From assembly GCA_017450925.1 (NCBI GenBank), contig JAFSSS010000051.1, forward strand, positions 1-46,320: 46,320 nucleotides of DNA, written 5' to 3'. Positions 10,824 through 46,132 of this stretch are shown in pieces (position 1 is the first letter of the stretch; each line of letters opens with the position of its first letter). This DNA is from Ruminococcus sp. (GTDB taxonomy: Bacteria > Bacillota > Clostridia > Oscillospirales > Ruminococcaceae). The notes beneath the pieces were generated by a model. The model ran no database searches and was not told the DNA's origin. It saw nothing but the letters and a program-made list of their open reading frames with translations. A program made the translations under genes and the position numbers.

Positions 10824-10856
10824 AAAAAGGAGCGCTTGCCGGGCGCTCCTTTTTTG
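10824..10856. terminator. Bidirectional terminator between the lipoprotein and NRPS genes
   Basis: AAAAAGGAGCGC and GCGCTCCTTTTTT form a 12-bp stem around a 7-base loop, with T runs on both strands. It serves both converging genes. Confidence 0.88.
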
Positions 10857-10869
10857 TGATGAAGGGGAC

Positions 10870-13800
10870 TTATCTGCTGAGGTTGTCGCTGTCGAAGAAG
10901 CTGAAGCCGCCGAGGACGCTGATGAAATCGTCAACATAGCGGTCGTTGCTCGCATTCCAGAAGAAGCCGAGACGGGCAAGCACCTGAGTGGTGTAATGTG
11001 CGGTGAAGGGCAGCTGTACAGCATGGCTGCCGTGTGCGGTGTCCATATAGGCTATCATGCTCTGGAGGATAGCGGCCTTGTCGGGATCCTTTTCGGCCTC
11101 GGACACGGCGGCGGCAAATTCGTCATATTCAACGAAACGGATATCCATGCCGTTTGCGTTCATGCGGCGGATGATGTCTCCCAGCGGGAGGGTGTGGTTA
11201 TTCACTGCGTTGAACAGGCAGCATTCCCTGGGAGTGCGCGCCAGCTTCAGAAATGCGCGGCAGGAAACGTCGATCGGCCCCATGCAGACCTGGTTCTCTA
11301 TCATCTGATAGGGGAAGCAGCCCAGCATACTGTAGGAGCGCAGACGTCCCATGAAGCTGTTGGTAAGGAAGTTGATCTGGAACTCGCCGTCAGACTCGCG
11401 GGCAGCAAGCGTGCCAACACGAATGACCTTGGCATCCAGCCCATTTACCGCCGCTTCAAGCACGGCTCGCTCGCCCATAAGCTTTGAGGCGGTGTACTTG
11501 TTGTCAAGGGTCTGTCCGAAGTAAAGGGACTGCTCGTCCAGCGAGGACTGGGGCAGGCTTTCGGGAGCCTCGGACGTTCCCGCAACGGAGATCGTGGAGA
11601 AGTGGATAAGCCTTGCGTTAAGGCTCCGGCAGAGGCGGATGCAGTTCACCGCACCTCCGATGTTGATGTCCTCGATATCAGTGCCGCTGGAGAAGTGCTT
11701 TACGTTGGCGGCACAGTTGAACACGGTATTGATCGGCAGGCTCTCGAACTGCCGGAAGCTCTCGTAGTCGGTAACGTCGCCGTCCAGCGCTGTGACGCGC
11801 TGATCTATGACGGAGTTGTAGCGGCTGCCGAAATAGTAGAACATCATGCTCTTGATGCGGTCGCCTGCACTGGGGTATCTGCCCTTGCGGATAAGACACC
11901 AGGCGGTGCCGCTTTCCTCGTCAAGATACTGTGCCAGCAGGTGAGCGCCCATGTAGCCGGTGGCACCGGTTATCATTATATTCCCGAGATCGCGCATAGT
12001 GCCGTTCAGGAAGGACTCGACTGTGTTCTTTTTAAGGAGGCCGTTTATCTCGGAGTAGTCGTAGCTGTCGAAGTCAAAGAGGCTGCCGCTCTTGGCTTCG
12101 TTCCCGGCAGCGAAAAGCTCTGCCAGCGCCCGGGGGGTGGTGTATTTGAACACATCACCGTAGGTGACGGGATAGCCGTTTTCCGATGCTGCCAGCACCA
12201 CAGAGGTAACTATCAGCGATGTTCCGCCAATCTCGAAGAAATCATCGGTGGCGCCGACGCGGTCAAGCTTGAGTGCCTTGGCGAAAGCATCGCAGAAAAA
12301 GCGCTCGGCCTCGTTGGCGGGCTCTGTGAACTCGCCCATATTCACCGGAACAGGCTCCGGCAGGCGTTTCAGGTCGGTCTTGCCGTTGGGGGTCATGGGC
12401 ATTTCAGACATTTGCAGGAATGCTGTCGGCACCATGTAATGGGTCAGATGCTTTTTAAGCTCTGCCCGCAGCCCGTCGATATCGACGGGGACATCGGCGG
12501 TGAAATAGGCGCAGAGGTTTTCCTGTTCGTTGATCCTGCGAATGACCACTGCCGCCTTTTTGATATGGGGCTGCGCCTCGATAAGGCCGATGATCTCGTC
12601 CAGCTCGATGCGCAGGCCGCGAAGCTTGACTTGATTATCCAGCCGCCCGAGGATCATGACATTCCCGCCTTGATCCCATTTTGAATAGTCGCCGGAGCGG
12701 TAAACTCTCTCGCCGTTATAGTCGATGAAGCGTTCGGCGGTCATTTTCTCCAGATTCTTATAGCCCCGTGCCACGCCGGTGCCGCCGATAAGCAGCTCGC
12801 CCACTGCGCCGTATGGAGTAAGGTCTCCGAACCTGTCAACGATGTATTCGGTATAGTTGAGCAGAGGTCTTCCCACGGTGATGTGGTCGGCATTTGTGAG
12901 GTCGGCCGCGTTGCAGGAGACGGTTATCTCGGTGGGGCCGTAGGTGTTCATGATGCGGGTAGCGGGGCAGCAGCGGCTGATGCTGTCTCTAAGGCTCATG
13001 GGATAGCCCTCGCCGCCGGACATTACCAGCCTGCAGCGTGACAGCGCCCTGACAAAGGGCTCATATTCCATATACTGTGCCAGACGGGAGGGTGTGGCGT
13101 TGATGCAGTCGGCGGAGTATTTATCCATAAGCTCTGCGAGAACGCGGGGGTCGTTCATCTGATCGTCGCCGGCGAAGATCAGCGTTTTGCCGTTGCAGAG
13201 GGCGGCGGTATGCTCCTTGAAGGACATATCGAACGACACGGTGGTGACTGACAGATAATTCTCGACGCTGTCGCTGATGAACTTCATATGGGGGTTAGCC
13301 GGGTGGGGATAAAGATAATTGCAGATGCCCCTGTGATGCAGCATTACGCCCTTTGGCTTGCCGGTGGAGCCGGAGGTGTAGATCATATATGCCAACTCGC
13401 TGTCGGACATTTTCACATCCGGGTCGGAGGTGTCGCTGCCGGAAAGCAGGTCGGACACATCTATCGCCTTTTCGGCGGGGTAGTCGGCAAGCTTGTCGGA
13501 GGTGGTGATGATGAAGGCTGCCTCGGAGTCGGTGATTATATGGTTGATACGGTCGGCGGGATACTGGGGGTCGCAGGGGATGAAGGCGGCACCCGCCTTG
13601 TTCACGCCGAACATACAGGCGAAGAAGGCAGAAACTCTCGGAAGGAGTATAGCAACGCTCGAACCGACAGTAACGCCTCTGGCGATCAGTCCGTTAGCGG
13701 CGATGTTGGCCTTCTCATTCAGCTCTCTGAAGGTATAGACAGCGTCCTCGGCGATAAGGGCGGTTCTGTCGGGCGTTTTCTCCGCATGGGCTTCAAACAG

Positions 13801-16800
13801 CTTATGCAGCAGGGTAACGGGTATATCCGCCCTTGCCTCGGAGGCAAAGCCCTCAAGCACCCTGCGCTGTCTCTCGGGCATAGCTGTGGCCTCGCGGACA
13901 GTGGCTGCTCCGCCGACGATAAGAGAGACAGTATGGTGCAGCTGCTCCGAAAAATTCTCTGCAACGGTGTCGTCGAACAGCTCGGAGGAATACTGCAGCA
14001 TGAATTTCAGTCCGCTTTTGGTCTTGCGGATGACGATGCCGATATCGCGGCTCATCTTCTGCAGGGGGGTGTCAAAGCTGACCTGCAGCTTGCCGTCGTC
14101 ATAGGCGGAGGGGAAATTCATATAGTTCACGCTGATGTCAAAAATGGGATTGCGGGACTCGTCCCTTTGGCGGACGTATTTCTTAACGACCTCCTCAAAG
14201 GGGAGCTGTGCGCCGTAGGTGACGTTTCTCACAGCCTCGCCCACCGAGCGGATATAATCCGCAGCCGAAAGGCTTCTCACGGGACGGATGCGGACGGGGG
14301 CAGTGTTGACGAACATTCCGATAACGCTTTCCGCTCCGTTGGGACGCATATTCGTGGGGATGCCGAGGACGATATCCTCGGAGGCGGTATATTTGGCGGC
14401 AGTCAAAGCGGCGGCGGAGAAGATAAGCTCAAATTCGGTCACGCCGAAGCCCTTGGCGGCACGGCTTATCTGTGCGGCCTCGCTGCTGCTGTAGGAGGTA
14501 TCTATCTGTCTATCGGAAAGGGGATGCACACGGGGACGCTTGCCCTTGAGGGGAAGGTCGGTCACGGGTATGCCGTCGGCAAACAGCTTGTCGTAGTATT
14601 CAAAGCCCTTGGTGTAGTCGGCAGAGAGGCTCTGCTCGAATATGTCGGAAAGCTCCAGCTCGGGTGGCGTCAGCTCCTCGCCTTTAAGGGCAGAGATAAG
14701 CTCACGGCAAAGCGTTTCGGCAGAGCCGCCGTCAAAGGCGATATGATGCACCGCGATGTGCAGCAGGGCTCCGCCCTCGGGAAGCTCATACACCACCGTC
14801 CGCACCGGGATGCCTGCGCTTAGGTCAAAGGGCTCGGCATAGGCCTCGGACTCACTGCGGGCCTGCTCCTCGGAAAGGGCGGCAGAGACGGTTATCTCCG
14901 GCAGTTCCTCGGTGACTATTCTGACGGGGATGCCGTTCCTCTCGGCATAGCGGGAGTGGAAGGCCTCGTGCAGAGAATACACGGTCTTGACTGCGGAAAC
15001 TATTCCGGCGGTGTCGGCACCCCTGATGCCGAATATCAGATTGAGCAGATATACGGTAGAATCCGGATCCATTTTCTGCTCGATATACATCCCTCTCTCG
15101 TAGGGCGTGAGGGGATAGACGGTGTCACGCTTTTCCTTGCGGGTAAGCTTTTGCGAAACAGCCTTGGTGAGCATTACCCGCTCGATACCCCGGGGAGTAT
15201 CACCGGCGAAGATATCCGCGGTGCGGATGCTGTACTGACGGCATTCGGCGGCTACGGCTGCAGAGCGTATAGAGTCGCCGCCGAGAGCGAAGAAGGAGTC
15301 GTCAGCACCCACGTTCTTCACGCCGAGTATCTTTTCAAAGGCGGCACAGATTGCTTTCTGCATATCTGTTTCGGGGGCGGCGTACTCCGCCTTGAAATCT
15401 CCCGCCTCTGGCGGCAGCAGGGCAGAGCGATCCAGCTTGCCGTTGGCATTCAGCGGCAGTTTGTCCAGTTTGATATAGAAGGCGGGGAGCATATAAGCGG
15501 GCAGCTTGTCAGAGATGCAGGCCTTGATATAATCCCCGTCAATATTTTTGTCGGTAGTGTAATAGGCGGCAAGATAAACCTGTCCGTAGGAGTTCTTATG
15601 GTCTCTTACCGCCGCCTCGCGCACACCCTCGACCGCGCGGATGACTGCCTCGGTCTCGCCAGGCTCGACACGCTGGCCGTTGATCTTTATCATCCAGTCG
15701 CGGCGGTTGAGATAGACTATATCGCCGTTCTCGTTCCTGCGGACGATGTCGCCGGTATGCAGAAGCGTATCATAGCCGTCGCTTTCCTTGAAGGGGTTGG
15801 GAACAAAGGTCTTGGCGTTCTGCTCGGGAAGCCCGAGATAGCCCGAGGCAAAATGCCCCGCAAGGCAAAGCTCGCCCTCCTCGGACTCTCTGCCCTCCTC
15901 GTCAAGTATATATGCGAACACAGACTCGATAGGTCTGCCGATAGGGGTGTTCTCGTATTTCCTGTCGATACGGAAATAGGTGGCCGCACCGCCTGTTTCG
16001 GTCTGGCCGAAGGAGCAGATGATGTCATAATCCTCTGAATAAGCGTCGGTGACTCTCTCGCCGCCCACCAGCAGGCATTTCAGACTTGTGCCGCTGCCGT
16101 CGAAGAGCCGCAGCACCTTGGGGCTTATGAAGGAGTGGGTAACGCCGTATTCCTTGAAGCACTCTGCCAGCATGAAGGGGTCTCTGATGACCTCAAAGGG
16201 CAGCAGCAGGCCGACCGCGCCCGTGTAAAGCGGAGCCCATGCCAGATGCAGCGACACCACAAAGGAGAGAGAGGCGCCGATAGCCTGTACCGCATCTTCG
16301 GAAATATCCGTGATCTTGCAGTAGCGTGTGACAGAGCCCAGCACGCTTATAAAATCATGCAGCACGCCCTTTGGTCTCCCGGTAGAGCCGGAGGTATAGA
16401 TCAGCACAGCGGGTGCGCTGTCCTCCGTGTTAACTGTATCTGCAAGCGGCTCCTCCATTTCTATGCCGCGCATGAACCTTGGATCTATCACAGCGGCAGC
16501 ACCGCAGTTTTCGCGGATGAACTCAAGCCTGTCCTCGGGGTATTCGTCGGACAGCGGAGCATAGGCGGCTCCCGCATACCACACGCCCAGCTGGGCGGCG
16601 AGATAATTGATGCTGCGGGGCAGCTCAACGGTAACAAAGCTGCCGGGGGTCACGCCGAGCCTTACGAGCCTTGCAGCGATCCTGCGGGCGAAAGTGTCGG
16701 CTTCCTCGAAGGTGAGGCTCCCCCCCTCCGTATCCATAAAGGCTGTCTTATCCCGAAAGGCAGAGATGTTTTCCGTGATGACCGAGAGTAATTTATTCAT
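10870..16800 (-). CDS. Two-module NRPS, A-PCP-C-A-PCP-reductase
   Basis: A 1976-residue nonribosomal peptide synthetase. Adenylation domain A1 (about 1-465; YTSGSTGRPKGV 135-146; NANGKLDR 451-458), carrier PCP1 (GGDS, Ser510), condensation domain (about 560-980; HHIAFDG 685-691), A2 (about 1000-1480; YTSGSTGKPKGV 1141-1152; YGPTE 1287-1291), PCP2 (GGTS, Ser1528) and a terminal thioester reductase (about 1605-1970; TGATGYMG 1611-1618, YTASK 1769-1773). The reductase should release the chain as an aldehyde with NAD(P)H. A2 keeps the alpha-amine-binding Asp (1191). In A1 that position is Val181 and the A5 motif is FGQTE rather than YGPTE, so A1 may load a carboxylic acid lacking an alpha-amine. 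GGAGGATTCAGT before the ATG at 16800 fixes the start. No epimerase, methylase or thioesterase is seen. Product: N-acyl amino aldehyde or dipeptide aldehyde (inference). Confidence 0.95.
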   Translation of the reverse strand: MNKLLSVITENISAFRDKTAFMDTEGGSLTFEEADTFARRIAARLVRLGVTPGSFVTVELPRSINYLAAQLGVWYAGAAYAPLSDEYPEDRLEFIRENCGAAAVIDPRFMRGIEMEEPLADTVNTEDSAPAVLIYTSGSTGRPKGVLHDFISVLGSVTRYCKITDISEDAVQAIGASLSFVVSLHLAWAPLYTGAVGLLLPFEVIRDPFMLAECFKEYGVTHSFISPKVLRLFDGSGTSLKCLLVGGERVTDAYSEDYDIICSFGQTETGGAATYFRIDRKYENTPIGRPIESVFAYILDEEGRESEEGELCLAGHFASGYLGLPEQNAKTFVPNPFKESDGYDTLLHTGDIVRRNENGDIVYLNRRDWMIKINGQRVEPGETEAVIRAVEGVREAAVRDHKNSYGQVYLAAYYTTDKNIDGDYIKACISDKLPAYMLPAFYIKLDKLPLNANGKLDRSALLPPEAGDFKAEYAAPETDMQKAICAAFEKILGVKNVGADDSFFALGGDSIRSAAVAAECRQYSIRTADIFAGDTPRGIERVMLTKAVSQKLTRKEKRDTVYPLTPYERGMYIEQKMDPDSTVYLLNLIFGIRGADTAGIVSAVKTVYSLHEAFHSRYAERNGIPVRIVTEELPEITVSAALSEEQARSESEAYAEPFDLSAGIPVRTVVYELPEGGALLHIAVHHIAFDGGSAETLCRELISALKGEELTPPELELSDIFEQSLSADYTKGFEYYDKLFADGIPVTDLPLKGKRPRVHPLSDRQIDTSYSSSEAAQISRAAKGFGVTEFELIFSAAALTAAKYTASEDIVLGIPTNMRPNGAESVIGMFVNTAPVRIRPVRSLSAADYIRSVGEAVRNVTYGAQLPFEEVVKKYVRQRDESRNPIFDISVNYMNFPSAYDDGKLQVSFDTPLQKMSRDIGIVIRKTKSGLKFMLQYSSELFDDTVAENFSEQLHHTVSLIVGGAATVREATAMPERQRRVLEGFASEARADIPVTLLHKLFEAHAEKTPDRTALIAEDAVYTFRELNEKANIAANGLIARGVTVGSSVAILLPRVSAFFACMFGVNKAGAAFIPCDPQYPADRINHIITDSEAAFIITTSDKLADYPAEKAIDVSDLLSGSDTSDPDVKMSDSELAYMIYTSGSTGKPKGVMLHHRGICNYLYPHPANPHMKFISDSVENYLSVTTVSFDMSFKEHTAALCNGKTLIFAGDDQMNDPRVLAELMDKYSADCINATPSRLAQYMEYEPFVRALSRCRLVMSGGEGYPMSLRDSISRCCPATRIMNTYGPTEITVSCNAADLTNADHITVGRPLLNYTEYIVDRFGDLTPYGAVGELLIGGTGVARGYKNLEKMTAERFIDYNGERVYRSGDYSKWDQGGNVMILGRLDNQVKLRGLRIELDEIIGLIEAQPHIKKAAVVIRRINEQENLCAYFTADVPVDIDGLRAELKKHLTHYMVPTAFLQMSEMPMTPNGKTDLKRLPEPVPVNMGEFTEPANEAERFFCDAFAKALKLDRVGATDDFFEIGGTSLIVTSVVLAASENGYPVTYGDVFKYTTPRALAELFAAGNEAKSGSLFDFDSYDYSEINGLLKKNTVESFLNGTMRDLGNIMITGATGYMGAHLLAQYLDEESGTAWCLIRKGRYPSAGDRIKSMMFYYFGSRYNSVIDQRVTALDGDVTDYESFRQFESLPINTVFNCAANVKHFSSGTDIEDINIGGAVNCIRLCRSLNARLIHFSTISVAGTSEAPESLPQSSLDEQSLYFGQTLDNKYTASKLMGERAVLEAAVNGLDAKVIRVGTLAARESDGEFQINFLTNSFMGRLRSYSMLGCFPYQMIENQVCMGPIDVSCRAFLKLARTPRECCLFNAVNNHTLPLGDIIRRMNANGMDIRFVEYDEFAAAVSEAEKDPDKAAILQSMIAYMDTAHGSHAVQLPFTAHYTTQVLARLGFFWNASNDRYVDDFISVLGGFSFFDSDNLSR

Positions 16801-16839
16801 ACTGAATCCTCCGTTCTGTCCGTTTTGATCGACCCCTTT

Positions 16840-16868
16840 ATTATACCACAAACCCCGGGGATATGCAA
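16840..16868 (-). promoter_or_regulatory. Promoter of the NRPS gene
   Basis: On the minus strand TTGCAT and TATAAT are 17 bases apart, about 40 bases before the start. The spacer contains the palindrome ATCCCCGGGG-T, a possible operator. Confidence 0.65.
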
Positions 16869-17002
16869 TATACAAATCTATCGTGATCTGTAAAAAATAT
16901 CCCGCTCGGATGTGCATTGTGCATTGAAGCAAATCGTTTTATACAGCAATTCATATCGAGATCGGGATAAACAAGCTTTTCGGGAAAGTTTTTGTCATGC
17001 TC

Positions 17003-17031
17003 TTGAAATCATGCAGGGAATGTGGTAGAAT
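17003..17031 (+). promoter_or_regulatory. Promoter of the STAS/PP2C pair
   Basis: TTGAAA and TAGAAT are 17 bases apart. It is divergent from the NRPS promoter about 140 bases away. Confidence 0.65.
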
Positions 17032-17065
17032 ATATCCATACTATGAAAGGAAAGGAATGGTAACC

Positions 17066-17356
17066 ATGACAATAACAAAGGAGATAAACGGGAACAGCGC
17101 AGTCATTGCTCTTGAGGGCTGGCTGGATACTCCTGCGGCGGCAGAGTTCAAGGCTGTGCTGGACGGCATCGGGGACGAGGTCACGGAAATGACTATCGAC
17201 CTTGAAAAGCTGGAATACATCTCTTCGGCAGGGCTGCGCCTTGTGGTGGCGGCTCACAAGAAGATGAACGGCGCTCTCACGGTGAAGAATGCATCTGTCG
17301 AGGTGCTGGATGTTTTCAGAATGACCGGCTTTGACAAGCGGATCAACATTCAATGA
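17066..17356 (+). CDS. STAS-domain anti-anti-sigma-factor-like protein
   Basis: A 96-residue STAS protein. The core is MTIDLEKLEYISSAGLRLVVAAHKKM (about 42-67), with serines 53 and 54 in the region phosphorylated in RsbV and SpoIIAA proteins. It would bind a kinase/anti-sigma partner when unphosphorylated. The ATG at 17066 is about nine bases from AGGAA; an in-frame ATG at 17057 is too near the ribosome binding site. Its stop overlaps the next gene as ATGA, so the two are translated together and probably act on each other. No sigma factor or separate anti-sigma gene is nearby, so the final target is unknown. Confidence 0.92.
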   Translation: MTITKEINGNSAVIALEGWLDTPAAAEFKAVLDGIGDEVTEMTIDLEKLEYISSAGLRLVVAAHKKMNGALTVKNASVEVLDVFRMTGFDKRINIQ

Positions 17357-19326
17357 AGGGCGGTCATATAAAAAAATACCGCGCCCAGCGCAGGATAGCG
17401 GTGATCTCTGTGGCGCTTATCATCTTCACAGCTCTGATGCTGACGCTTTTTTCTGCGATCTACTATGACCGCTTCACTATCGAAACCTGCACCGACAATG
17501 CAAAGCGCTTCAAGGCGGAGCTGACGGAGTCCTTGGAGTATCTGAATCTTGATACTCTGGATGACGACGGTGACAAGGCTCTGCGCTATGACACACTGCG
17601 CCAGTTTCTAAGACGGCTCTGTGCCTCCTCGGGCATAGAGTATATCTATCTGTTCAGAGCGGGCTTTGACGACGATAATATGCACTACATCATGTCGGCC
17701 GCTGTCGAGGACGATCTGGACGAGGTCATCAGCAGAGAGCGCGGCAAGGATGCAAGCATCTACATGGATGACCGAAGCTATATAGACAAGGCGCTGGAGG
17801 GTGAGCTTGCAGGCCCCGAAAGGCTGAACAACGAGTTCGGCAGAGAGCTTGCGTACTATTTCCCTATGTATGACAAGCAAAAGCGGTTGAGCTATATCGT
17901 GGGGATAGATTACAACATTTCCCGGATACGGAGTCAGGCTATAGCTTATGTGTTGAGAACTGTGCTGATAGTAACTGTTGTGCTGCTGGTGGTAATGACT
18001 GTTATGCTGCTTGTGTTGAGGAAGAAGCTGTTCATCCCGGTAAGGCGCATCGCCGAGCAGATGAATTCCTTCGACCCCGAAAAGGAGCAGGAAAAGCTGC
18101 AGCTCAATTCCTATTACGAGATCGTGGAGATCAACGAGTCCTTCAACAAGCTTTCCGGGGATATCGTGGGATATATCCGCAACATACGCTCTATGGCGAA
18201 TGAACGCGCCAAAGCCTCGGCAGAGCTTAGCATTGCAAGGAAGATACAGATCGGCATGGTGCCGATGAGCTTCAGCCGCGTTGGACCCGGGTACGAGATC
18301 AATGCGATCGCCTGTCCGGCCAGAGAGGTCGGAGGGGATCTTTATGACTGCTTTGAGGCGGATGAGAGGGTCTGCACCGTCATAGCCGACGTTTCGGGAA
18401 AGGGAGTTGCGGCGGCTCTGTTCATGAGCATGGCCAAGCACATCATCAGAGACAGACTGAAAACGAGCCTTGACCCCGCCTGCGCTCTCAACGCTGCCAA
18501 TGAGGAGCTTTGTGCGGAAAACCCCGAGGGAATGTTCGTTACCGCATTTGCGGCTGTCCTTGATACAAGAACGGGAGAATGGATATACGCCAATGCGGGA
18601 CACACACATCCGCTTATCTCCGACAGCAGCGGCAGGAGGTACCTTGTCCCGGATACCGGCATCGCTCTTGGTCTGTTTGAGGATGCGGGGATCGTCAACG
18701 AATCTGTGATACTTGAAAACGGTGCCTGTGTGTCTGTCTATACCGACGGCATCACGGAGGCGGTATCAAAGGACAATGTGCTGTTCGGCGAGGAACGCCT
18801 GCTTGAGGCCTGCGCCGGGAATACGGCCGCCGAGGCTGTTGAGTCCGTAAAACGCGCTGTAGCTGACTTTACGCTGGGAAACGAGCAGTCGGACGATATG
18901 ACGATGCTGGCACTTAGGTTCGATGCGGCAGACAGGATCGTAAGCGAGCGGCTGGCGGCGGAGATGCCGTCCCTTGCGAGAATGCGTTCACTGCTGCTTG
19001 ATGCGGCGGCTGACTTTGAGAACAAGCGGCATATCGCCCTTGCCTGTGAGGAGATCTTCGTCAACATCGTGGATTATTCCGGCACCGACACCATAGGCGT
19101 TATAATCGGCAGCGGCCGGGGCAGACTGACTGTGCGTTTTGAGGACAGCGGCAAGCCCTTTGACCCTCTGACGGAAATGCCCGAGGAAAAGGAATTCGAT
19201 GAATACGACACCGGCGGCATGGGCATTCGGATGATGACAAAGATCGCTGACAAGCTTCGCTATTCAAGGATCGGCGGCAGGAACATCCTTGTAATGTCGT
19301 TTACGTCCGAAAAGAAAGAACAGTAA
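17353..19326 (+). CDS. Membrane PP2C (SpoIIE-type) phosphatase fused to an RsbW-like kinase domain
   Basis: A 657-residue partner-switching protein. Membrane segments at about 15-37 and 196-222 flank an extracellular sensor of roughly 155 residues. A HAMP-like stretch (about 225-285) leads to a PP2C/SpoIIE phosphatase (about 310-525) with metal ligands in GGDLYD (327-332), ADVSGKG (345-351), YTDG (463-466) and SDDM (513-516). Residues about 530-652 are an HATPase (GHKL) domain with ACEEIFVNIVDYS, FEDSGKPFDP and GGMGIRMM (621-628). One chain can therefore dephosphorylate and phosphorylate STAS proteins. The overlapping upstream STAS gene is the obvious substrate. The sensor's signal is unknown. 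The divergent NRPS is a possible output, but nothing in the sequence proves it. Confidence 0.93.
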   Translation: MKGGHIKKYRAQRRIAVISVALIIFTALMLTLFSAIYYDRFTIETCTDNAKRFKAELTESLEYLNLDTLDDDGDKALRYDTLRQFLRRLCASSGIEYIYLFRAGFDDDNMHYIMSAAVEDDLDEVISRERGKDASIYMDDRSYIDKALEGELAGPERLNNEFGRELAYYFPMYDKQKRLSYIVGIDYNISRIRSQAIAYVLRTVLIVTVVLLVVMTVMLLVLRKKLFIPVRRIAEQMNSFDPEKEQEKLQLNSYYEIVEINESFNKLSGDIVGYIRNIRSMANERAKASAELSIARKIQIGMVPMSFSRVGPGYEINAIACPAREVGGDLYDCFEADERVCTVIADVSGKGVAAALFMSMAKHIIRDRLKTSLDPACALNAANEELCAENPEGMFVTAFAAVLDTRTGEWIYANAGHTHPLISDSSGRRYLVPDTGIALGLFEDAGIVNESVILENGACVSVYTDGITEAVSKDNVLFGEERLLEACAGNTAAEAVESVKRAVADFTLGNEQSDDMTMLALRFDAADRIVSERLAAEMPSLARMRSLLLDAAADFENKRHIALACEEIFVNIVDYSGTDTIGVIIGSGRGRLTVRFEDSGKPFDPLTEMPEEKEFDEYDTGGMGIRMMTKIADKLRYSRIGGRNILVMSFTSEKKEQ

Positions 19327-19359: not shown

Positions 19360-19556
19360 ATAATGGATAACGGATAATGAAAAGAGAGCGTCCTTGGCGC
19401 ACGAATGCCCATTCGGGCGCTGCAGAGAGTTCGTATAAATGCAATTGTGCATTATATCAAAACGATCTGCGGTGTTCGAGCCGGACAAAGCGAATGTTCC
19501 ATTCGCTTCCGCGCCAAGGACGCTCTTTTCATTATCAAATATCAGCTATCCATTAT
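19360..19556. repeat. Long palindromic intergenic repeat (family B)
   Basis: The left arm (19360-19400) ends GAGCGTCCTTGGCGC and the right arm (19511-19556) begins GCGCCAAGGACGCTC. Outer parts ATAATGGATAAC and GCTATCCATTAT also pair. Nested palindromes inside include GCGAATGTTCCATTCGC. It separates two converging genes, and its right arm overlaps the stop codon of the PPTase gene. Non-coding. Confidence 0.8.
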
Positions 19557-20204
19557 CAACTGTAAATGACAGTCTGTCATTTGCCTTAAGTCCTCCGTCA
19601 GCGCGGAGAGGCTGACGGGGATAAGCGCGGCATCATCTCCGTCGGCAGAGACAGCGGCGATGCTGCTGCTGCCCCGGTCGATGACGGTGATGCGCCCGAG
19701 GGCGGCGGTGTCGGCAGCTTTAAGGTCGTCGGTGATGCCGGTGCCGAGCATTTTCAGATATGCCTCCTTCATAGCCCAGATGCGGGTGAAGGCTCTGGCA
19801 GGGTCGTCGGAGCTGCGGACGGCGGCGGCCTCCGCTTCGGAGCAGACCGCCTTTACAACAGCCTCTCCGGGATAGGTTATGTCCTGTATGTCGCCGCCGA
19901 CCTCGCTGTCGGACAGCACGCATATGCAGCCGAGAGGGCAGTGGCTAAGGCTGAAATGCACCTCAGGGCGGTCGGCAAGATAGGGCTTGCCGTTCGCGCT
20001 CACGGCAAGGGTGAAATCAGCTATGCCCCGGCTGTGCTTCAGACCGTATGTCAGCAGCCGGTAGGCTGCAGCGCAGGAGAGCCTGTCCCGGCGGAAGCGG
20101 TAGCGCCGGGCTTTCTGCTGCCGGTATTCCGGCATGGACTGTATCATAGCTGTCAGAGCCGCATCCGTGACGGAGCTGTATTCGTCAAAAAGATATATCT
20201 CCAT
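19542..20204 (-). CDS. Sfp-type 4'-phosphopantetheinyl transferase
   Basis: A 220-residue PPTase that would attach phosphopantetheine to carrier serines (510 and 1528) of the neighbouring NRPS. Motifs in order: RRYRFRRDRLSCAAAYRLL, GKPYL (72-76), FSLSHC (84-89), VGGDIQ (102-107), WAMKEAYLKMLG (143-154). The usual metal motif is VGIDIE; here Asp105 and Glu147 remain but the second acidic residue is Gln107. The last five residues and the stop lie inside palindromic repeat B, so the native C-terminus may have been replaced by the repeat insertion. A second carrier-protein role in fatty acid synthesis is possible. Confidence 0.9.
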   Translation of the reverse strand: MEIYLFDEYSSVTDAALTAMIQSMPEYRQQKARRYRFRRDRLSCAAAYRLLTYGLKHSRGIADFTLAVSANGKPYLADRPEVHFSLSHCPLGCICVLSDSEVGGDIQDITYPGEAVVKAVCSEAEAAAVRSSDDPARAFTRIWAMKEAYLKMLGTGITDDLKAADTAALGRITVIDRGSSSIAAVSADGDDAALIPVSLSALTEDLRQMTDCHLQLIMDS

Positions 20205-42020: not shown

Positions 42021-42809
42021 ATGAGCAAGGAAAGAAAAAGAATAGTAGTTAAGCTTGGCACATCCACCTTGACGCATAAGACGGGTAAGCTGAACATAAG
42101 GCGCATCGAACGGCTGGTGAAGAACCTTGCCGACCTGCACAATGCGGGGAACGAGCTGGTGATCGTATCCAGCGGAGCCGTCGGCCTCGGAATGGCAAAG
42201 CTGAATTTGATGCAGAAGCCTAAGGAAACACCCTTGAAGCAGGCCTGCGCCGCTATCGGCCAGTGTGAGCTGATGTATTTCTATGATAAGCTGTTTTCGG
42301 ACTACAGTTTGAATGTGGCACAGGTGCTGCTGACCAAATACGTCCTGCTGGAGGACAGGCGGGTGAACGTGCAGAACGCCCTTGAGGAGCTGCTTTCCCG
42401 CAATGTTATCCCTATCGTCAACGAGAACGACACGGTGGCTATCGACGAGCTGGAGCTTGAGGTGGGCGAGAACGACTCTCTTGCCGCAACGGTGGCAACT
42501 ATCGTGGATGCTGACCTTTTGATAATCATGTCGGATATCGACGGACTTTATGACTCCGACCCGCGCAGCAGCGAAAATGCCAAGCTGATACCCGTGGTGG
42601 AGGAGATCACCGAGGAGATCCGTCAGCTTGCGGGCGGTGCAGGCTCGAAGCTGGGAACAGGCGGCATGAGGACCAAGATCGCCGCGGCAGAGATCGCCAA
42701 CTCCCACGGGATAGATATGGTGATAGTCAACGGGCGCAATCCCGACAACCTTTACGATGTGTTTGAAAAGGGCGCGGGTACGCTGTTCAAGGCGAAGAGA
42801 AATAGCTGA
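42021..42809 (+). CDS. proB: Glutamate 5-kinase (kinase domain only)
   Basis: A 262-residue amino acid kinase that phosphorylates glutamate at the gamma-carboxyl group, the first step to proline. VVKLGTSTLT opens the fold, VSSGAVGLGMAKL is the substrate loop, NENDTVA and DIDGLYDSDPR mark the glutamate and ATP sites, and TGGMRTKIAAAEIA the later helix. The C-terminal PUA domain of longer ProB enzymes is absent. Its partner proA is in the same operon but three unrelated genes further on. Confidence 0.96.
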   Translation: MSKERKRIVVKLGTSTLTHKTGKLNIRRIERLVKNLADLHNAGNELVIVSSGAVGLGMAKLNLMQKPKETPLKQACAAIGQCELMYFYDKLFSDYSLNVAQVLLTKYVLLEDRRVNVQNALEELLSRNVIPIVNENDTVAIDELELEVGENDSLAATVATIVDADLLIIMSDIDGLYDSDPRSSENAKLIPVVEEITEEIRQLAGGAGSKLGTGGMRTKIAAAEIANSHGIDMVIVNGRNPDNLYDVFEKGAGTLFKAKRNS

Positions 42810-44856: not shown

Positions 44857-44878
44857 TCATATCAAGGAGATGTTCAAC

Positions 44879-46132
44879 ATGGGCTATATCGAAACTCTCG
44901 GACTGAACGCAAAGGCCTGCAAGACCGAGCTTGCAAATGCATCGGCTGCAAAGAAGAACGATGCGCTTTTGGAGATCGCGCACATCCTTAGACGCTGCGC
45001 CCCCAAGATCATCGAGGCTAATCAGATCGACCTTGAAAACGCCGTAAGGCGCAATATGACCCCCTCAATGCAGGACAGGCTCCGGCTGGACGAAAAGCGC
45101 ATCGAGGGCATCGCTGCCGCCTGCGAAAAGCTGACGGCGCTGGATGATCCTATAGGCGAGGTCATGGGCGGCGGAACTCGCCCCAACGGAATGCGGATCA
45201 CTAAGATCAGAGTTCCTATGGGCGTGGTGGGAATGATCTACGAGGCACGCCCGAATGTTACCGTTGATGCAGCGGCGCTCTGTCTGAAAAGCGGGAACTG
45301 CGTTATCCTCCGGGGCGGCAAGGAGGCTATCAACACCAACAAGATGCTGGCGGCACTGATGCGCCGCGCCGTTGAGACTGCCGGCTTTGACCCCAACATC
45401 ATCCAGCTCGTTGAGGATACCGACCGGGGCATCGCCACGGATATGATGCAGGCCAACGGCCTTATCGACGTGCTTGTTCCGAGAGGCGGCGCACAGCTTA
45501 TCAAGGCCGTGGTGCAGAACGCCACCGTGCCGGTCATCGAGACGGGAACAGGCAACTGCCACGTTTATGTGGATGAAAGCGCCGACCTTGACATGGCTGT
45601 GAACATCGTTGACAACGGCAAGACACAGCGCCCCTCGGTGTGCAACGCGATCGAGACCGTGCTTGTTCACCGCGATGTGGCTGATGACTTCCTGCTGATG
45701 ATGAAGAACCGCCTTGACGAGCATCATGTCGAGCTGCGGGGCTGCCCGATAACCCGGATGATACTGGGCGAGGAAAATGTCGTTCCCGCCGACGAGGACG
45801 ATTACGCCACAGAGTTCCTTGACTACATCCTTGCGGTGAGGGTCGTCGATGACATGGCACAGGCGCTGGAGCATATCGCAAAGTATTCCACCGGGCATTC
45901 GGAATGCATCGTGACTGAAAGCATTTTCGCGGCGGAGGAGTTCCAAAAGAGGGTCGATGCCGCCTGCGTGTATGTGAACTGTTCAACACGCTTTACCGAC
46001 GGCGAGGAATTCGGCCTCGGCGCAGAGATAGGCATTTCCACGCAGAAGCTCCACGCAAGAGGGCCTATGGGTCTGCGTGAGCTGACCACGATGAAATATC
46101 TGATAAACGGCAACGGACAGATAAGAGGCTGA
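44879..46132 (+). CDS. proA: Glutamate-5-semialdehyde dehydrogenase
   Basis: A 417-residue gamma-glutamyl phosphate reductase, second enzyme of proline synthesis, using NADPH on the ProB product. Visible: IRVPMGVVGMIYEARPNVTVDAAALC, LRGGKEAINTN, VPRGGAQLI, the catalytic cysteine in SVCNAIETVLVH and STRFTDGEEFGLGAEIGIST near the end. AAGGAG nine bases before the ATG at 44879 supports that start; an in-frame ATG at 44870 touches the ribosome binding site. Last gene of its operon. Confidence 0.96.
   Translation: MGYIETLGLNAKACKTELANASAAKKNDALLEIAHILRRCAPKIIEANQIDLENAVRRNMTPSMQDRLRLDEKRIEGIAAACEKLTALDDPIGEVMGGGTRPNGMRITKIRVPMGVVGMIYEARPNVTVDAAALCLKSGNCVILRGGKEAINTNKMLAALMRRAVETAGFDPNIIQLVEDTDRGIATDMMQANGLIDVLVPRGGAQLIKAVVQNATVPVIETGTGNCHVYVDESADLDMAVNIVDNGKTQRPSVCNAIETVLVHRDVADDFLLMMKNRLDEHHVELRGCPITRMILGEENVVPADEDDYATEFLDYILAVRVVDDMAQALEHIAKYSTGHSECIVTESIFAAEEFQKRVDAACVYVNCSTRFTDGEEFGLGAEIGISTQKLHARGPMGLRELTTMKYLINGNGQIRG

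Follow-up and report, generated by a model that had tools for sequence, protein, structure and literature searches.

The stretch of DNA analysed here (the window, 46,320 nt from a Ruminococcus sp. assembly) is an entire contig (C24) of a 2.03 Mb genome in 83 contigs, 66.6% complete, and carries a single non-ribosomal peptide synthetase (NRPS) gene, encoding a protein of 1976 aa (Table 1). The open reading frame (ORF) as listed begins at a TTG codon (10870–16932, minus strand), but the ATG at 16800, with GGAGG upstream on the minus strand, is the likelier start, and residues are numbered from it throughout. Antisense ORFs across the gene, e.g. 13288–14823 on the plus strand, were treated as spurious. 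Pfam finds two AMP-binding stretches, two PP-binding domains, one Condensation domain and one NAD_binding_4 domain in the protein. Custom domain models, applied to the overlapping pieces L001 and L002 and to the whole window (loci, genomes and contigs are cited by our running numbers, L, G and C), also return the order A-T-C-A-T-R (adenylation, carrier, condensation, reductase), in agreement with the order given in an initial annotation made from the sequence alone. The condensation domain is the only one matched in the genome.

All motifs searched in the first A domain (A1, 466 aa) are in place: YTSGSTGRPKG (residue 135), FGQTE (264), LHTGD (347), RRDWMIKINGQRVE (366) and NGK with K455; A1 thus looks re-specialised rather than dead. 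Its predicted fold has a mean pLDDT (per-residue model confidence) of 90.3 and a pTM (predicted template modelling score) of 0.78, and the serine motifs of both T domains are present. What A1 lacks is the aspartate associated with recognition of the alpha-amine. In the alignment, Val181 of A1 and Asp1191 of the second A domain (A2) both fall on Asp235 of GrsA, as the initial annotation had it, and the proline of YGPTE (position 325) is replaced by glutamine, giving the FGQTE it had also pointed out. Within residues 166–200 of A1 the only aspartate is D169, 12 residues ahead of V181, with none within 11 residues; an aspartate displaced by one or two positions, which the initial annotation had named as a refutation, is thereby ruled out.

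Table 1. Features of the NRPS locus and its flanks (residues counted from the ATG at 16800)
Feature	Position	Strand	Basis or remark
NRPS gene, A1-T1-C-A2-T2-R, 1976 aa	10873..16800	-	stop codon 10870-10872
A1 loading adenylation domain, residues 1-466	15403..16800	-	Pfam, motifs, predicted fold
Val181 codon, at the GrsA Asp235 position	16258..16260	-	alignment
FGQTE, residues 264-268, replacing YGPTE	15997..16011	-	alignment, motif search
Lys455, at the GrsA Lys517 position, retained	15436..15438	-	alignment, motif search
T1 carrier domain, GGDS	15181..15375	-	domain models, motif
Condensation domain, HHIAFDG intact (residue 685)	13855..15123	-	Pfam, C-domain tree, motif
A2, Asp at 235, code DMKNMGTVSK, predicted Glu	12355..13812	-	pocket code, TIGR01733
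T2 carrier domain, GGTS	12115..12309	-	Pfam, motif
Terminal reductase domain, TGATGYMG (1611), YTASK (1769)	10873..11988	-	Pfam, motifs
Terminator-like stem, 12 pairs, directly after NRPS stop	10824..10854	-	1 found vs 0.4 expected in shuffles
STAS domain protein, anti-sigma antagonist type, divergent from NRPS	17066..17356	+	ORF listed from 16997
SpoIIE-type phosphatase, C-terminal HATPase_c_2	17353..19326	+	Pfam
4'-phosphopantetheinyl transferase	19542..20204	-	Pfam/NCBIfam matches

The same loss is found throughout the relatives of A1. In the main count, all 38 A domains with a residue other than Asp at 235 (GrsA numbering) also have a residue other than Pro at 325, and all 78 domains with Asp have Pro. 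A second count, in which the window rows were not re-counted, added 6/6 and 6/6, so that the pooled figures are 44/44 and 84/84, the non-Asp rows being relatives rather than independent events since they were mostly fetched by likeness to A1. Rows outside the main count (L047–L050, L054, L055, L061) follow the same rule (7/7 and 1/1). The Asp rows include A domains from other NRPSs (C-A-T-C-A-T-R enzymes, L051, L098) besides later modules of the enzymes with a loading domain; near-identical rows, e.g. L012/L013, were counted separately, a fragment in L062 was left unscored, and L001–L010 were excluded as copies or parts of other rows. In the listed proteins the non-Asp domain, denoted A*, comes first among the A domains of its reading frame. 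At position 330, the main count has G, A, S or C in 36/37 non-Asp rows and V, I, L or M in 74/77 Asp rows; L118, from the second count, departs from this with I. Among the 37 non-Asp rows, position 235 is V or I in 36 and position 325 is M in 16, and all 37 have Lys at 517. Over 31 rows, 43 A1 columns are invariant, catalytic columns included.

Positions 235, 324 and 330 are those that we take to correspond to D197, G295 and V301 of DltA. These three residues hold the alpha-amine in DltA, according to passages of PMC11253843. At 235/325/330 of our alignment, the E. coli references read D/P/V in EntF, F/L/P in FadD and A/M/G in EntE, where the letter at 235 is unsure because the stretch is gapped and DhbE has Asn there according to PMC11253843. 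Against the amino acid adenylation model TIGR01733 (cut-off 317.4), A1 (253.1) and its relatives L011 (277) and L012 (274.2) fall below the threshold, while A2 passes with 342.4. The summed side-chain volume at positions 301, 322, 330 and 331 averages 357 in non-Asp rows against 451 in Asp rows, a weak hint that the smaller side chains leave a roomy pocket in the non-Asp domains. From these comparisons, loss of the alpha-amine signature is supported as a conserved trait of the loading-domain clade.

In a tree of A domains, all 31 loading-domain rows come out as a single clade (100/99), grouped with NRPS A domains. EntE, FadD and one acyl-CoA ligase fall outside the NRPS A rows (100/98), on long branches and as the three references of this kind, with no FAAL included; within that sampling, descent of A1 from an EntE-type aryl-acid ligase or a FadD-type acyl-CoA ligase is ruled out. 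Comparison of the A1 model with PDB chains did not separate the acid classes among the 50 matches listed; StsA, DhbE and FAAL chains were absent from these, which carries no weight.

A scan of named genomes yielded 29 loci, which we take to be mostly rumen and gut metagenome bins. Complete long forms are mostly A*-T-C-A-T-C-A-T-R; a larger form, L018 (353–11812), has A* and three amino-acid modules, including two that nearly duplicate each other, with its reductase cut by the contig end. Complete short forms, with the domain order of the window enzyme, number seven (the window, L011, L094, L096, L097, L114 and L118), and L115 is cut by its contig. A tree was built from 70 C domains. The 24 located directly after A* in long forms divide between two groups, one of 14 rows and one of 15 (100/99 for each), in which the only internal C domain is a tandem copy from L018. 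Of nine N-terminal C domains from C-A-T-C-A-T-type enzymes, three belong to these groups (L099 and L045 to the first, L052 to the second); those of L053, L060 and L101 make up a separate group, and those of L046, L062 and L063 are placed elsewhere. The entries of L015 and L024 among the first C domains come from fragments of split genes. As for the short forms, their C domains make a group of five on a long branch, in neither post-A* group. Their grouping with EntF in an earlier C-domain tree was long-branch joining and is superseded by the 70-domain tree.

At the other end of the enzyme, the A2 code DMKNMGTVSK is identical in 7/7 complete short forms. It has Lys at 239, which fits an acidic side chain (Glu code). 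The last A domain of the C-A-T-C-A-T-R enzymes L052 and L101 reads DMKNLGTVSK, one letter off A2. On the strength of Lys239 and this near match, the amino acid taken by A2, and hence the terminal residue, is probably Glu. Between the window enzyme and L011, L094, L096 and L097, identity is 52–67% in A1, 70–88% in A2 and 73–83% in R; the loading end therefore varies while the amino-acid end is kept.

We propose that A1, having evolved inside the NRPS A-domain lineage, activates as its adenylate a carboxylic acid that has no alpha-amino group, and transfers it to T1. The C domain would couple this acyl group to the amino acid loaded by A2 on T2, most likely L-Glu, and R would reduce the thioester, setting free an N-acyl amino aldehyde, of which N-acyl-glutamyl aldehyde is the likeliest; release as the aldehyde would be a two-electron step. 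A medium-chain or aromatic acyl group is favoured over very small ones as the substrate of A1, and the phosphopantetheinyl transferase encoded nearby likely activates T1 and T2. The enzyme would then be related to the N-acyl dipeptide aldehyde NRPSs but shortened, with the acyl group provided by an A-T pair devoted to that task.

This is the best reading of the locus because of the clade-wide loss of the alpha-amine signature, the single amino-acid module, the intact reductase and, in the long forms, post-A* C domains that stand apart from internal ones. We consider it somewhat better than an even prospect that A1 is a carboxylic-acid loader and the product an N-acyl amino aldehyde, most likely N-acyl-glutamyl aldehyde. 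Several observations weigh against it. The evidence from C domains bears on the window indirectly, its own C domain lying outside the post-A* groups, and a Pfam scan of 25 window proteins (NRPS included), part of the window genes, revealed no recognisable gene for acid supply close to the NRPS. Nor was one recognised among the recurrent neighbours of other loci, most non-recurrent neighbours being outside the scan. Moreover, the keto acid domain of StsA, described in passages of PMC11253843 as having Ile at 235 and Met for the YGP proline, is a close signature match, and L-Phe is the substrate of McyG, which has Val at 235 (PMC11253843). The reading of the initial annotation, an N-acyl amino aldehyde rather than a dipeptide aldehyde, is partly supported.

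The StsA match could mean that the substrate of A1 is an alpha-keto or alpha-hydroxy acid, in which case the amino aldehyde would carry an alpha-keto- or alpha-hydroxy-acyl group. The prevalence of V or I at 235 and of M at 325 in the non-Asp rows agrees with a keto acid, and according to PMC11253843 an M415P mutant of StsA lost adenylation activity. However, the keto modules of cereulide synthetase have a ketoreductase embedded in the A domain, according to passages of PMC4455996, and its absence here is the main argument against a keto acid: among the loci of the domain-layout scan no gap between A* and T exceeds 110 aa, so that no ketoreductase is embedded in their A* domains, and no ketoreductase family is among the Pfam matches of the window NRPS at E 0.001. 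A residue other than Pro at 325 also occurs in EntE (M) and FadD (L), and the hydroxy acid domains named in PMC11253843 carry Ala or Gly at 235. We regard a keto or hydroxy acid as unlikely.

A little less probable again is a hydrophobic amino acid on A1, with a dipeptide aldehyde closing to an aureusimine-like pyrazinone. The behaviour of McyG would allow it, the A-T-C-A-T-R order is that of AusA, and the AusA model NF047350 is the top NCBIfam match, but its 907.6 bits lie far under the cut-off of 2500, the three alpha-amine-linked positions change jointly over the clade, and A1 stays under the TIGR01733 cut-off. That A1 is vestigial, with T1 loaded in trans or not at all, might be read from its lower conservation among short forms; it appears very improbable, given the ATP-binding and Lys motifs kept, the invariant columns and the universal Lys517.

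Beyond the window, an A1 match at 1e-80 or better was found in 7/16 genomes of the genus, the window's own included. The short-form A1 domains cluster together in a group of 10 rows, which also has two long forms of the same genus nested in it, so that the short or long label requires two changes. One genome (G756) holds both a short form (L114) and a long form (L116), with nearly the same A1 pocket codes. In the long forms L116 and L117 of the window's genus, the middle A code is DAQDTGTIYK, Gln/Glu-like, versus the DAMFSG type common in other long forms. Six A*-T-C proteins of ~940–1020 aa (L048, L049, L050, L054, L055 and L119; L054 cut by its contig) contain an acyl-type A domain, their reading frames encoding no A domain for an amino acid, and HHxxxDG is present in the five looked at (L119 excluded). 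In two other A*-T-C proteins (L014:7079–9970 and L028:9974–12880) the C domain does not match HHxxxDG, reading NHAISDG in L028; in L014, a second protein, A*-T-C-A-T-C, comes after the one with the atypical C domain. Loci in bins named Bacteroidales, Treponema and Acholeplasmatales (L015, L033, L036, L021) could reflect horizontal transfer or mis-binning, and the NRPS genes of L024, L036 and L039 are broken into at least two frames on metagenome contigs.

The STAS and SpoIIE genes beside the window NRPS recall the RsbW/RsbV/RsbU partner-switching systems. A STAS gene, a SpoIIE gene or a fusion of a MATE transporter with HATPase_c_2 lies within 4 kb of the NRPS at 13/21 long A* loci (those flanked on one side by 2 kb or more, L013 dropped), 5/5 short forms, 6/8 C-start loci and 6/8 loci with only A*-T-C (cut or split genes included), with L094, L096, L097, L099, L100 and L101 having been fetched via the MATE fusion and L060 found by both searches. 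The later short forms L114, L115 and L118 have one or more of the three nearby; loci with none of them include L014, L016, L035 and L062. The divergent STAS-SpoIIE layout of the window recurs in L094, L115 and L118. Partner-switching genes (STAS, SpoIIE, RsbW-like ATPase) were noted at 16997–19326 in the window and in L012, L017, L025, L026, L034, L044, L094, L096, L097, L116 and L118, and the window's genome has 6 SpoIIE and 9 STAS matches overall. Between the NRPS and STAS genes, an alignment of the window with L094 shows little conservation beyond the ribosome-binding region and coding ends, and a conserved regulatory motif is not supported; promoter-like sites there (2 found, 1.1 expected) are given no weight. 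Elsewhere in the window are an amino acid kinase family gene (42021–42809) and an aldehyde dehydrogenase family gene (44870–46132), possibly glutamate kinase and semialdehyde genes.

MATE fusions occur, for example, at L011:15947–17689, L012:2913–4673, L044:10645–12396 and L094:16511–18247. At 1e-60 the fusion is matched in 73/396 genomes of the family, many on the MATE part alone, and loci were given for 30 matches. Those above 400 bits have NRPS domains in their 1.5 kb flanks in 13/14 cases (not L071; four of the 14, L064–L067, are alignment seeds), against 0/16 of those below 350 bits. Three further matches above 400 bits came without a locus, and one of these, later L105, adjoins an A* piece. 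In the wider order, at 1e-90, 2/295 genomes match, with L060 beside an NRPS and L059 beside STAS and SpoIIE genes; some lower-scoring copies also adjoin SpoIIE or STAS genes. The fusion is not an NRPS-only gene: lower-scoring copies lie away from NRPSs, and the window's genome, which has no MATE fusion in the window, has three full-length matches elsewhere. The HATPase parts keep the E..N box and DNG motif, and the STAS proteins keep an ISSAG-like serine motif. By analogy, the dephosphorylated STAS protein might bind the ATPase and gate export. As a tentative extension, which we think possible but on balance doubtful, the A* clade of gut and rumen anaerobes would have lost alpha-amine recognition and would load free acids in place of a starter C domain fed by acyl-CoA or acyl carrier protein; its N-acyl aldehydes, single-residue N-acyl-glutamyl ones included, would be exported by the MATE pump through an RsbW-like ATPase switched by STAS and SpoIIE, with a phosphatase signal gating the release of protease inhibitor.

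The partner-switch neighbours make regulation and export testable. If A1 loads free acids, any protease inhibitor so made would be tied directly to gut or rumen acids. The 235/325/330 signature could separate acyl loaders from amino-acid domains in genome mining, where predictors based on pocket codes likely misread the acyl loaders. Gut-bacterial N-acylated dipeptide aldehydes inhibit cathepsins and proteasomes, according to passages of PMC8518294, and acyl aldehydes built on a single residue would make up a smaller class than those described there. No publication on the A* clade was recognised in literature searches whose reach did not extend to Guo 2017 and Schneider 2018. Those two papers reportedly defined the gut aldehyde family.

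Among known systems, the ruminopeptin type and other gut N-acyl dipeptide aldehyde NRPSs share with the window enzyme the terminal reductase and, on the proposed reading, the N-acyl cap and a predicted Glu at the aldehyde end; their terminal A domains are related and, for some, so are the first C domains of the long forms. The rup enzyme is presumably C-A-T-C-A-T-R. Unlike this type, the window enzyme starts with A*-T in place of an N-terminal starter C domain and has one amino-acid module, not two. AusA, the aureusimine synthetase, has the same domain order but couples two amino acids, whereas the window A1 is without the alpha-amine signature. The alpha-keto acid modules of StsA and CesA1 resemble A1 in the aliphatic residue at 235 and the non-Pro residue after the A5 glycine, but A1 is without their embedded ketoreductase, and the McyG A domain shares its Val at 235 and activates L-Phe. 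Myxochelin synthetase MxcG joins an acid to an amino acid and releases the product by a reductase, with a separate aryl-acid ligase; the window loader, in contrast, is fused to the NRPS and of NRPS A-domain descent. The window NRPS would represent a variant form among the known gut peptide-aldehyde NRPSs, in which an A*-T pair loads the acid and a single module adds the amino acid.
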